DNA of 64,000 bases from Terriglobia bacterium (GTDB lineage: Bacteria; Acidobacteriota; Terriglobia; JAIQFV01), in the NCBI GenBank assembly GCA_020073085.1, contig JAIQFV010000006.1, positions 62,001-126,000 of the forward strand, written 5' to 3'. The position numbers and the translations under genes are program-made. Under the pieces are notes generated by a model, which did not search any database, was not told the DNA's origin, and worked only from the letters and a program-made list of their open reading frames with translations. Below, in pieces: positions 3,083 through 8,630 of this stretch (within the stretch, counting starts at the first letter, position 1; each line of letters starts with the position of its first letter).

Positions 3083-3781
3083 ATGACAAGGAAACGGTTA
3101 TTGGTTGTGGGGGGGGAACCGCAGGTGAACGACTGGCTCGCCAGGGCCTTTGCCACGGAATTCGAAATCCTGACGGCACAAACGGGAGTGGAAGCCATCA
3201 ACAAGGCTGTTCTGCAGCGGCCCACGTGTATCCTGGTGGATGCCAAGATGCCGAGAATGGGCGAACACCTGCTCTCCAAGGTCTTCAAGATGATCGAACA
3301 AACGCGGTCGATCCCCATTGTCATGGTCTGCGAAAATCCGGATCCTGAATTCCGGAAGATGTTTCAAGAGATGGGGGTGGTGGCCTGTATTGAAAAGCCT
3401 CTCTCGCTGGAGCAGGTGGCCAGCGTCATCGATCGGGCCCTGCGAACGCCCTCGGTGGAGCGGCGGCGCAGCCCGCGGGTAAAGGCAAAAATCCCGGTGG
3501 TCATCCGCGTTGGGGACGCTGAGGAGCACGAGGCGGAAATTGCGACGGAGCTGGAAGATGTCAGCCGCCTCGGGGCGCTGGTGTCCTTGCCCATACGGAT
3601 CGATGCGCGGGAGCGGATCGAGATCCGCCGGCCGGATATGACGCCGGACGACGATGCCTGGCTCACGACTTCGGCGCGGGTCGTGTGGAGCGACGAAGAG
3701 GAGAGTGACGGCCTCTACTGGCATGGGTTGGAATTCCTCAATCCTTCAACCCAATGGATCATTCGACAGTACGTTCAATAG
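3083..3781 (+). CDS. Response-regulator receiver plus PilZ domain protein (copy 2)
   Basis: A 232-residue paralogue of the upstream gene with the same order of domains. The receiver starts VVGGEP, so the first acidic metal-binding residue (D10 in copy 1) is glycine, while D53 in ILVDAKMP and the lysine of EKPL are kept. The PilZ part has RRRSPR and DVSRLG. Each copy has therefore lost a different conserved receiver residue. If phosphorylation still occurs it may be weak, or the receivers may serve as dimerisation modules. The start has AAGGAACGG ahead of the ATG. A strong hairpin with a T-rich tail follows the gene. Confidence 0.88.
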   Translation: MTRKRLLVVGGEPQVNDWLARAFATEFEILTAQTGVEAINKAVLQRPTCILVDAKMPRMGEHLLSKVFKMIEQTRSIPIVMVCENPDPEFRKMFQEMGVVACIEKPLSLEQVASVIDRALRTPSVERRRSPRVKAKIPVVIRVGDAEEHEAEIATELEDVSRLGALVSLPIRIDARERIEIRRPDMTPDDDAWLTTSARVVWSDEEESDGLYWHGLEFLNPSTQWIIRQYVQ

Positions 3782-3888: not shown

Positions 3889-4028
3889 TCAGCTTCTGCA
3901 GGCATGCCCCCGTTGTCTGCTGGCATTCATGGTGCGCGCGATGGCATAACCTAGGCCCGTAAGGCAGCCAGATAGTGGCCCCACCTGTCGAAGATCCGCC
4001 GGGGCGGGCCCCGCACGCTCTTTACGCA

Positions 4029-4182
4029 GCGAGGATGCGGTTGAGCTGAGAAGGGGCATCAGGTCCCAGGCCCGCAGGGCCGAAAGACTGTAGCCCCGCG
4101 CCTCTTTCGTGTGGCGAGGATGCGGTTGAGCTGAGAAGGGGCATCAGATCCCAGGCCCGCAGGGCCGAAAGATTGTAGCCCC
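4029..4182. repeat. Two-copy 69-bp direct repeat
   Basis: The 69-base segment 4029-4097 recurs at 4114-4182 with only two mismatches, separated by 16 bases (period 85). Both copies start GCGAGGATGCGG and end TGTAGCCCC. Short CTGTAGCCCC and GTGGCCCC runs nearby suggest further decay products. No reading frame runs consistently through both copies with a ribosome site. It looks like a recent local duplication in non-coding DNA. Confidence 0.85.
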
Positions 4183-4775: not shown

Positions 4776-4828
4776 GACACTGACGCCCCCCTGCATAGCA
4801 GGAGCACAGCCCATAAGCTGCTCTGGTA

Positions 4829-4959
4829 GCCCCGCCACGTTTTAGTGGCGGGGGCCTTTGCAAGTGGCCTGGTAAAAATACCGCCGCCGTGTCACCCATT
4901 ATTGGTGGCGGATTGCGCCGGGGGCTTTTCCGAGCGGTCTGGTATAAATCCCGCCGCGA
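4829..4959. repeat. GC-rich hairpin and imperfect tandem repeat downstream of the 4434 gene
   Basis: A 9-bp stem (arms 4830-4838 and 4845-4853) pairs CCCCGCCAC with its complement. It begins with CTCTGGTAGCC, the same word that opens the hairpin at 22153. After it, a ~39-base segment near 4852-4890 (GGGGCCTTTGCAAGTGGCC...) recurs imperfectly near 4921-4959. The hairpin may end transcription, but it lacks a clear T run. Confidence 0.5.
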
Positions 4960-5037: not shown

Positions 5038-5114
5038 GCGCGTGTAGCTCAGCTGGATAGAGCAGCGGTTTCCTAAACCGTTGGTCGGCGGTTCAAGTCC
5101 GTCCACGCGCACCA
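5038..5114 (+). tRNA. tRNA-Arg (anticodon CCT)
   Basis: The cloverleaf folds fully: a 7-bp acceptor stem (5038-5044 with 5104-5110), a D stem GCTC/GAGC, an anticodon stem 5065-5069 with 5077-5081 (one G-U pair), the loop TTCCTAA giving anticodon CCT at 5072-5074, and a T arm with GGTTCAAGTCC. The 3' CCA is encoded at 5112-5114 after discriminator A. It reads AGG codons. tRNA 3' ends are common integration sites, and the RecQ/DprA pair starts about 320 bases downstream. Confidence 0.96.
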
Positions 5115-5170
5115 AAGCCTCGAAGCGAGACAAAAATCCAAAGGCCAAACGCCAAGTTCCAAGTAGGGGC

Positions 5171-5232
5171 CAAACTCCAAATCTCAAATCTGACTCAGAC
5201 CCGTTGGGAATTCATCGACGGCGGAGCAGACC
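5171..5232. repeat. Degenerate direct repeat, left copy flanking the RecQ/DprA pair
   Basis: The 62-base segment starting CAAACTCCAAATCTCAAATC matches 8569-8630 at about 50 of 62 positions without gaps. The left copy lies 56 bases after the tRNA-Arg gene; the right copy begins five bases after the DprA stop. The rest of the 5115-5433 spacer shows no gene. The CAAATCTCAAAT wording resembles a low-complexity intergenic repeat also hinted at near 11790. Confidence 0.65.
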
Positions 5233-5433: not shown

Positions 5434-7506
5434 ATGACCTTTGACACTACACGAGCCCTTGAACTCCTGCGCCTGGGGACTCAGAATCCGGGCGCACAAT
5501 TTCACGATGGGCAAGCCGAGGCGATCCGACATGTGGTGGAAAATCGAGGACGTCTCCTGGTGGTTCAAAAGACCGGATGGGGAAAGAGCTCGGTTTACTT
5601 CATTGCGGGGAAACTTCTCCGTACCTCTGGGGGCGGCCCGGCCCTTTTGATTTCACCCCTGCTTGCATTGATGCGAAACCAGATTGAAGGGGCGCGCCGG
5701 ATGGGGGTGCGCGCAGAAACCATCCATTCCGACAACCAGGAGGAGTGGGAGGGGGTAGTGACCCGTCTCCGGCGTGATGAAGTGGATACCCTGTTGATCT
5801 CCCCAGAACGGCTGGCCAATTCAGAGTTCGTCGCCGATGTGCTTTCGATTTTGGCCGGGCGATTGTCGCTTCTGGTGATTGACGAAGCGCACTGCATTTC
5901 GGATTGGGGGCATGACTTTCGACCGCATTACCGCCTCATCCAGCGCATCGTGATGAATCTGCCGCGAAACCTGCGCCTGCTGGCGACGACAGCGACCGCG
6001 AACAACCGGGTGATTGAGGATCTGCGGGCGACCCTGGGTCCCGACCTCGTCGTCATGCGCGGCCCTCTGAACCGACCCTCCCTGTTCCTGCAAACGATCC
6101 GAATTCCTTCCTCCGCTGAACGGATGGCTTGGATCAGCGAAAATTTGGGGCGTCTCCCCGGCAGCGGCATTGTCTACACCCTGACGATCCGCGACGCCGA
6201 GCGCCTTACCGAGTGGCTGCAACAGGAGGGCTTCGAGGCAGAGTGTTACACCTCACGGGCGGGAGAGCGCCGACAGGAAATCGAGCAGGCGTTGCTCCAT
6301 AATCGCGTCAAGGTCTTGATCGCGACGACCGCGCTGGGCATGGGGTTCGACAAACCGGATTTGGGATTTGTGGTTCACTACCAGGCGCCCGCATCGGTCG
6401 TGGCCTACTATCAGCAGGTGGGACGGGCGGGGCGGGCGATCTCGTGCGCCTACGGAATTCTTTTGAGCGGCGAAGAAGAAACAGAGATCACGAATTACTT
6501 TATCGAGACTGCGTTTCCTACTCCGGAAGAAGTACGGGCGCTCCTGGAACTGTTGCAGAGGTGTCCCCGGGGGCTATCGGTTCCGGAGATGATGGGTGGG
6601 GTCAATATCGGCAAGACGCGAATTGAAAAGACGCTGCAACTCCTCTCGCTGGAATCCCCGGCACCGATTGTCAAGGAGGGAACGAAATGGATTCTCACAA
6701 CAGCTGACCTCTGCACGGAATTCTGGGAACGCGCCCGGCGGCTCACCCACCTTCGTCACAAGGAGCAGCGGCAGATGCAGGAATATGTTGACCTGAAAGG
6801 GGGTCACATGGAGTTTCTGATTCGGTCGTTGGATGGCCAACCCGGCCCGATTACGTTCCCCGCCGTGGAACCGCTCCCGACCACACCATCCATTGCCGTT
6901 GTCGATCGGGCAATCGCGTTCCTCCGCGGGCGTGATATCATGATCGAGCCGCGCGTCATGTGGCCTTCGGGCGGAATGCCCCGCATGGATGTGAGAGGGA
7001 AAATCCCTCCGGAGCTGCGGCTGGAGGTCGGGCGGTGTTTGTGCCTGTGGGGCGATCCTGGCTGGGGGATATGGGTGCGGCGCGGCAAGTATGAGGACGG
7101 ACGCTACTCCGACGAGTTGGTCCGCGGTCTGGTCGAAATGATTGAGCGCTGGCAGCCGGATCCCCTTCCGACGTGGATAACCAGCGTGCCATCGAAGCGA
7201 CATCCAGCGTTGGTCGCCGACCTGGGGGTTCGACTCGCGACGGCGTTGAAGATTCCGTTTGTTCCGGTAATCGTCAGTGCGAAAGCACATCCGCCTCAGA
7301 AAAGCATGCTGAATATGACCCAGCAGGCTTTGAATCTGGACGGGGTATTCGAAGTGGTTACGGAAGCGGTTCAGGGCGGCCCGGTTTTCCTGCTGGATGA
7401 CATGGTAGATTCCCGATGGACGCTTACCGTGGTCGGATATCTTCTGAGGGTGCAGGGGAGCGGGCCGGTGTATCCCGTGGCGCTGGCACTCACTTCAAAA
7501 TCATGA
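5434..7506 (+). CDS. RecQ-family DNA helicase fused to a ComF-like phosphoribosyltransferase domain
   Basis: A 690-residue protein. Residues 1-350 hold the SF2 RecQ core: Walker A TGWGKS (K51), DEAH at 150-153 followed by the RecQ aromatic loop CISDWGHDFRP, motif III ATTAT, and motif VI QQVGRAGR near 327-334. Residues ~380-450 look like a winged helix. The RecQ zinc site and HRDC are not evident. Residues ~560-690 resemble ComFC/PRTase proteins: VPSKRHP, then LNMTQQALNLDGVF, then the PRPP-loop-like VFLLDDMVDSRWT (D655, D656). The next gene (DprA family) overlaps by four bases (ATGA), so the two should be translated together. The ATG at 5434 was preferred over a TTG at 5374; neither has a strong ribosome site. 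Nucleic-acid role inferred; defence role hypothetical. Confidence 0.9.
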   Translation: MTFDTTRALELLRLGTQNPGAQFHDGQAEAIRHVVENRGRLLVVQKTGWGKSSVYFIAGKLLRTSGGGPALLISPLLALMRNQIEGARRMGVRAETIHSDNQEEWEGVVTRLRRDEVDTLLISPERLANSEFVADVLSILAGRLSLLVIDEAHCISDWGHDFRPHYRLIQRIVMNLPRNLRLLATTATANNRVIEDLRATLGPDLVVMRGPLNRPSLFLQTIRIPSSAERMAWISENLGRLPGSGIVYTLTIRDAERLTEWLQQEGFEAECYTSRAGERRQEIEQALLHNRVKVLIATTALGMGFDKPDLGFVVHYQAPASVVAYYQQVGRAGRAISCAYGILLSGEEETEITNYFIETAFPTPEEVRALLELLQRCPRGLSVPEMMGGVNIGKTRIEKTLQLLSLESPAPIVKEGTKWILTTADLCTEFWERARRLTHLRHKEQRQMQEYVDLKGGHMEFLIRSLDGQPGPITFPAVEPLPTTPSIAVVDRAIAFLRGRDIMIEPRVMWPSGGMPRMDVRGKIPPELRLEVGRCLCLWGDPGWGIWVRRGKYEDGRYSDELVRGLVEMIERWQPDPLPTWITSVPSKRHPALVADLGVRLATALKIPFVPVIVSAKAHPPQKSMLNMTQQALNLDGVFEVVTEAVQGGPVFLLDDMVDSRWTLTVVGYLLRVQGSGPVYPVALALTSKS

Positions 7507-8564
7507 CCTCCAATGTTTCGGAAAATACACGCGCCATTCTGCTCCTGACGGCACCCTTGATCGTGCGCACCTCCAGCGAAGGCCCGCCGTCAACCCTGAC
7601 GTTGTCGGAATTCAACAGGCTGGCAAACCGGCTGGAAGAGATGGACGCCGAGCCTGCGGATTTGATCGGCTCGAATCAAGGAGAATGGCTGGCGAAGTTG
7701 GCGCCGCTCTTCGCACCGCAACGGCTCGAAGGCCTGCTGGCGCGCGGTTTTCAAATGAGCCAGGCCATCGACCAGTGGGGCGCGCGGGGAATCTGGGTGA
7801 AGAGCCGCGTCGATCCCAACTATCCGCAGCGGCTTCGGTCGAAACTTGAGGATCTTGCGCCCGCGGTGATTTATGGTTGTGGACGGGAGGAGCGGTTGGG
7901 GACCCGCGGACTGGCGATCGTGGGATCCCGGAGTGCTGATGAAGAAGGATTGGCGTTCGCTGAGGCGGTCGGCCGGCTGGCGGCGAAGTCGGGAGTAGCG
8001 GTCGTGTCGGGCGGAGCGCGGGGCGTCGATCGCGCGGCCATGAAAGGCGCACTGGAAGCCGGCGGAACGGTTGTCGGTGTGCTGTCAGACCAGCTCCTGC
8101 GGATGGCCGTGGCGCCGGACTGCCGCGACCCGATTCGCGAAGGCCGCCTGATCTTGATGTCCCTGGTCGATCCTTCCGCCGGGTTTAACGTCGGCAACGC
8201 CATGCAGCGCAATAAGATGATTTATGCGCTGGCCGATGCCGCGCTTGTGATCAGCGCCGATTCCGGGAAGGGCGGGACCTGGAGCGGCGCTAAAGAGCAA
8301 ATGGAGCGCTTCCACAGCTGCGCGGTCTACGTTCGAGTTCATCCCAATGCGCCGGAAGGGAACAAAGAACTTCAAAAACATGGGGCGCTCCCATGGCCGC
8401 AGCCGGAAACCGTCGAGGAGTTGAAGAAGGTGATGGACGAGGCCCCACCTGCTGCCAAACCGTCGTCCCGCAACTTGAGACTCCCCCTTTTCCCCGCCGA
8501 AGAGGACGTTGCCGCCGTGGACAGGAAATCCCAGAAGACATCCGTTCGTCCTAAGAGACGATGA
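7503..8564 (+). CDS. DprA-family (Rossmann-fold) DNA-processing protein
   Basis: A 353-residue protein with the DprA/Smf Rossmann core: LAIVGSRSADEEG, VVSGGARGVDRAAM (S169-D176), and NAMQRNKMIYALADAALVISAD (R236-N237-K238), the conserved nucleotide- or DNA-binding signatures. The first ~100 residues are an additional helical domain and the tail (~310-353) is basic and Pro-rich. DprA normally loads RecA onto incoming single strands during transformation; stand-alone DprA-like proteins paired with PRTase proteins form the ShosTA defence system. Its ATG overlaps the RecQ-PRTase stop. No other competence gene is seen in this window, which favours a role outside ordinary housekeeping transformation. 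Confidence 0.9.
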   Translation: MTSNVSENTRAILLLTAPLIVRTSSEGPPSTLTLSEFNRLANRLEEMDAEPADLIGSNQGEWLAKLAPLFAPQRLEGLLARGFQMSQAIDQWGARGIWVKSRVDPNYPQRLRSKLEDLAPAVIYGCGREERLGTRGLAIVGSRSADEEGLAFAEAVGRLAAKSGVAVVSGGARGVDRAAMKGALEAGGTVVGVLSDQLLRMAVAPDCRDPIREGRLILMSLVDPSAGFNVGNAMQRNKMIYALADAALVISADSGKGGTWSGAKEQMERFHSCAVYVRVHPNAPEGNKELQKHGALPWPQPETVEELKKVMDEAPPAAKPSSRNLRLPLFPAEEDVAAVDRKSQKTSVRPKRR

Positions 8565-8568
8565 GAAC

Positions 8569-8630
8569 CAAGATCCAAATCTCAAATCTTACTCAAGGCC
8601 GTTAGGATCTCAACGACGGAGGAGGAGCCC
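8569..8630. repeat. Degenerate direct repeat, right copy flanking the RecQ/DprA pair
   Basis: This is the partner of 5171-5232 and starts five bases after the DprA stop codon. It shares CCAAATCTCAAATCT, ACTCA, CCGTT and CGACGG blocks in the same order and spacing. A weaker match of the form CTCT(T)CTAGG extends past the end. Confidence 0.65.

Follow-up and report, generated by a model that had tools for sequence, protein, structure and literature searches.

What is encoded by a two-gene unit that joins a RecQ-type helicase to a phosphoribosyltransferase (PRTase)-like domain and couples it to a protein of the DprA family? The question arises from a locus in a 64,000-nucleotide stretch of a Terriglobia bacterium contig (here called the window; all positions are counted from its first letter, and all features of the locus lie on its forward strand). 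The first gene (5434..7506) encodes a protein of 690 aa and the second (7503..8564) a protein of 353 aa, and the two overlap by a start/stop ATGA (7503..7506). For reasons given below, we refer to these genes as psyrT (rqlH-like, the predicted toxin) and psyrA (rqlI-like, the predicted antitoxin). A first-pass annotation had read the pair as either a helicase-carrying relative of the ShosTA defence system or a compact DNA-processing module.

We located the RecQ motifs that this annotation had reported in the 690-aa chain, namely the Walker A motif TGWGKS (residues 47-52, 5572..5589), the Walker B motif DEAH (residues 150-153, 5881..5892) and QQVGRAGR (residues 327-334); Pfam assigned DEAD and Helicase_C domains to the same protein. 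The 353-aa product matched DNA_processg_A (PF02481, E 1.8e-33), in agreement with its earlier placement in the DprA family, and is a DprA/SLOG-family protein. The PRTase domain (residues 487-690, 6892..7503) was less evident from the single sequence, whose Pfam match to a PRTase family was weak and below the cut-off (E 0.0074). A profile built from 47 relatives matched PRPP synthetases at E about 1.5e-5, and PurF and HGPRT as well, and PF00156 was matched in 29 members of this set. The AlphaFold2 model of the full-length protein (pLDDT 91.1, pTM 0.87) had RecQ folds as its best PDB matches. Since the best 50 Foldseek matches listed for the full chain were all RecQ folds, the PRTase domain was modelled apart from the helicase. 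The resulting model (pLDDT 95.7) matched the folds of APRT, PurF, ShosT and Helicobacter pylori ComF (HpComF), with TM-scores by query length of 0.55 for ShosT (8zvd; 8zvc and 8zvb were also matched) and 0.51 for HpComF (7p0h). Structure prediction, which had been proposed as the test of PRTase similarity, thus returned the expected fold, and we regard the predicted PRTase identity of the C-terminal domain as firm on the combined basis of the 47-relative profile, the PF00156 matches and the modelled fold. The usual PRPP-loop motif of PRTases is DD..TG.T. The loop of the window PsyrT departs from it and reads DDxVDSxWT, within the motif LLDDMVDSRWT (residues 653-663, 7390..7422; LLDDMVDS at 653-660). 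Walker A K51, Walker B D150 and the PRPP-loop residues D655-D656 are all intact.

When both proteins were compared with the PADLOC models, the PsyrT model covered the 690-aa protein almost from end to end (E 1.9e-258, residues 1-689 on model positions 1-686 of 689), and the PsyrA model matched the 353-aa protein with E 1.9e-110 and 367.7 bits, the alignment stopping at position 325 of 398. The same PsyrA model was matched by 66 of 66 PsyrA homologues. A pair of this kind, with proteins of 698 and 401 aa, is found in E. coli between gntU and yhgN, and the window PsyrT and PsyrA are 47% and 38% identical to it, respectively. The published length of RqlH, 698 aa, equals that of the first E. coli protein, and the published 400 aa of RqlI compares with 401 aa at this locus. 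RqlH residues K49, D148 and D663 align to the Walker A lysine, the DEAH aspartate and the second aspartate of the PRPP loop, and are conserved in the window protein as K51, D150 and D656. The genotoxicity of E. coli RqlH stems from its PRTase domain, and RqlI binds the protein and limits its action; most of the toxicity is lost in the D663A and DIVD663EVME mutants, while the helicase mutants K49A and D148A remain harmful (PMC4670107). PsyrT and PsyrA of Pseudomonas syringae are orthologues of RqlH and RqlI (PMC4670107), and shosTA, syrTA and rqlHI have been classed together as toxin-antitoxin systems with DprA-type antitoxins (PMC9122126). Judged from sequence, the two-gene unit is very probably a PsyrTA (RqlH-RqlI) toxin-antitoxin module and a candidate phage defence system, for which a mechanism based on PRTase release can be proposed. 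The likeness extends to both proteins, the gene order, the overlap, the helicase motifs, the PRPP-loop residues and a patchy horizontal spread. As PsyrTA has already been described, the unit is an additional copy of a known system and not a new one.

Could the unit nevertheless be a ShosTA member that has a helicase in addition? The two systems share the combination of a PRTase toxin with a DprA-like antitoxin; the window PsyrA does match the ShosA model (E 1.4e-23), and the PRTase fold matches ShosT. However, the ShosA match reaches 81.6 bits against 367.7 bits for the PsyrA model, no ShosT model appeared among the matches of the PRTase domain, and the PsyrT model covers the whole length of the chain. 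ShosT itself is without a RecQ helicase, according to the description of the system as DprA plus PRTase (PMC9122126). Membership in ShosTA fails on the PADLOC scores and on the RecQ core of the chain, and we give it next to no probability; ShosTA is kin to the window pair but a separate system. The kinship proposed in the first-pass annotation is therefore upheld, but the novelty and the DNA-uptake role are not, since PADLOC names the unit PsyrTA. A further likeness was found in DpdF of the Dpd 7-deazapurine-DNA system, a helicase whose C-terminal part resembles the window PRTase region at about 66 bits; this score is far below that of PsyrT, and other Dpd genes were not seen beside the window pair.

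The distribution of the pair bears on two other explanations. Among 396 genomes of the phylum, full-length PsyrT was found in the window genome and 11 others, with 1 further copy cut at a contig end (13/396); five additional matches were RecQ-only. The pair was absent from both other genomes of the same family that were examined, and the suspicion that it might be a universal housekeeping locus of the phylum does not hold. Within the phylum, psyrA followed psyrT in 11 of 11 genomes. A scan of contigs across genomes gave 80 loci, spread over many phyla and including an archaeon. At 68 of them PsyrT is full-length and followed by 900 bp or more; psyrA lay directly downstream in 60 of these, and the same ATGA overlap was present in 19. 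In the tree, the window protein falls in a supported clade of 25 rows that carries 13 phylum labels. We take this to reflect horizontal spread, bearing in mind that metagenome bins may contain stray contigs. Phage records contained no PsyrT, their matches being partial RecQ helicases over about half of the protein. An E. coli chromosome (L039) and Yersinia nurmii (L058) encode identical PsyrT proteins, which points to recent transfer. On pSymB of Sinorhizobium meliloti, psyrT is intact and the neighbouring psyrA frame (L037, 8076-8882) is short (268 aa) and unannotated, suggesting that the antitoxin is damaged.

The first of these explanations is a DNA-uptake module, in which the helicase-PRTase chain would replace ComFA and ComFC and the second gene would be the competence DprA. 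ComFA, ComFC and DprA are likewise a helicase, a PRTase-like protein and a DprA-type protein acting together, the domain parallels have also been noted by others (PMC4670107, PMC5512222), and HpComF is among the fold matches of the PRTase domain. However, the competence proteins are separate polypeptides with a helicase of another family and belong to the competence machinery of the host, whereas the helicase of the window is RecQ-type. The genome also carries a separate, distinct DprA homologue elsewhere (C10, 33% identical). Close relatives are without the pair and few genomes of the phylum carry it, which is at odds with the lineage-wide housekeeping conservation expected of competence ComF and DprA. 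We consider an uptake role extremely improbable. The second explanation is that the unit serves the host, as a helicase for DNA repair and its accessory regulator, and is neither toxin nor defence. The RecQ helicase core would fit such a role, and rqlH occurs without rqlI in many Gram-positive bacteria, for which other roles were proposed (PMC4670107). Against this stand the tight pairing seen in 60 of the 68 relatives, the horizontal spread, the relatives found within restriction and BREX loci, and the conservation of the PRPP-loop aspartate needed for RqlH toxicity, so that we regard a repair function as very unlikely.

As for genomic context, one PsyrT relative on an E. coli plasmid sits within a type I restriction-modification operon, one in Acinetobacter lies between the BREX genes pglX and pglZ, and another adjoins an ABC three-component system. 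In the neighbourhoods scanned, PADLOC placed type I restriction-modification and HerA genes near such relatives; we offer these as examples and claim no enrichment. The window differs from these cases, as no defence island is visible around its pair: a scan of sampled neighbouring genes gave no defence-system match except a generic one to alpha-amylase, and the neighbours sampled look like ordinary metabolic or housekeeping genes. Upstream, two adjacent genes (2180-2872 and 3083-3781) are of similar make-up; the first encodes a response-regulator receiver with a PilZ domain, and the second looks like its paralogue.

Two further differences from the described systems concern regions outside the motifs discussed above. 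PsyrT proteins close to that of the window lack the four cysteines that others carry between helicase and PRTase, and this absence of the zinc motif is a trait of the whole clade, its E. coli member included. The window PsyrA, in turn, lacks the C-terminal helix-turn-helix reported for RqlI: its tail comprises 59 aa after G294 and holds no such domain. We scored helix-turn-helix tails by length, as a regular expression undercounted them. The tail lengths of PsyrA are bimodal, and 24 of 66 relatives, counted from the listed lengths, are as short as the window protein. By this comparison of sequences, the helix-turn-helix is not a defining feature of PsyrA, a third of the relatives being without it. 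One may speculate that the zinc-less clade, with its short-PsyrA members, represents a PsyrTA subtype with a mechanism of its own, where the sensing of DNA would have shifted from the helix-turn-helix of the antitoxin and the zinc module of the toxin to another surface; we think this unlikely. A PsyrT clade that crosses phyla without the RecQ zinc motif, together with a dispensable antitoxin helix-turn-helix, narrows the range of places where PsyrT-PsyrA regulation may reside.

How might the module of the window act? In the PsyrT/RqlH proteins of known relatives, DNA stress, SOS induction and filamentation arise from the PRTase domain, on which the helicase domain acts as a further restraint. 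ShosT has been described as having both PRTase and pyrophosphatase activity and as upsetting purine metabolism, with ShosA binding DNA and T7 Gp0.7 serving as a trigger (review, PMC12593503). By extension to the window copy, PsyrT would act on DNA, where the helicase would bring the PRTase effector. Phage infection or DNA damage might disturb a PsyrA-PsyrT-DNA complex and free the PRTase, which could then consume PRPP or unbalance purine nucleotides, as reported for the related ShosT, and growth of the infected cell would be stopped. A DprA-PRTase pair gives phage defence (PMC9122126), and in one study PsyrTA in its native host gave no phage protection and caused a growth defect when expressed (PMC12409345).

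The site of the pair, beside a tRNA and within direct repeats, had also been said to fit a mobile cassette. The pair is indeed flanked by two direct repeats of 63 nt each (5170..5232 and 8568..8630), which are identical at 50 of 63 positions (79%). In a same-genus genome (G001) the site is empty and holds a single copy of the repeat, 69% identical to the right window copy and 63% to the left. From the tRNA-Arg (CCT) gene at 5038..5114, which lies outside the module and serves as a landmark, to the downstream CxxCxxCC gene, the distance is 141 bp in this relative and 3,539 bp in the window. The simplest reading of this sequence comparison is an insertion of roughly 3.4 kb in the window lineage; less simply, the relative may have lost the cassette by recombination between the repeats. 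With a GC content of 60.2%, the cassette differs little from the sequence on either side (58.4% and 57.4%), so base composition gives no mark of foreign origin. The inserted cassette, its repeats and the empty site thus agree with the earlier description. Integration targeted to the tRNA was rejected, because the 3' end of the tRNA is not duplicated, the cassette holds no integrase gene, and this tRNA occupies the same position in the relative whose site is empty. The outcome for the locus is one candidate new system fewer, and one more PsyrTA cassette that has clean boundaries and a relative in which the site is empty.

We also rejected the idea that the flanking repeats are generic dispersed repeats, as the whole 63-nt unit was found solely as these two copies; elsewhere, matches at 75-80% are confined to its A-rich first part, and one 15-mer has one more exact copy. 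The region upstream of the tRNA holds repeats of its own. A short hairpin-like GC element (GTAGCCCCGCCACGTTTTAGTGGCGGGG) at 4820-4861 belongs to a dispersed intergenic repeat, and the stretch that contains it recurs more than 30 times in the window genome and the same-genus relative, with 82-100% identity. Positions 4008-4177 hold a tandem duplication of 85 nt (86% identical), and a 43-nt unit related to it lies at 3945-3987.
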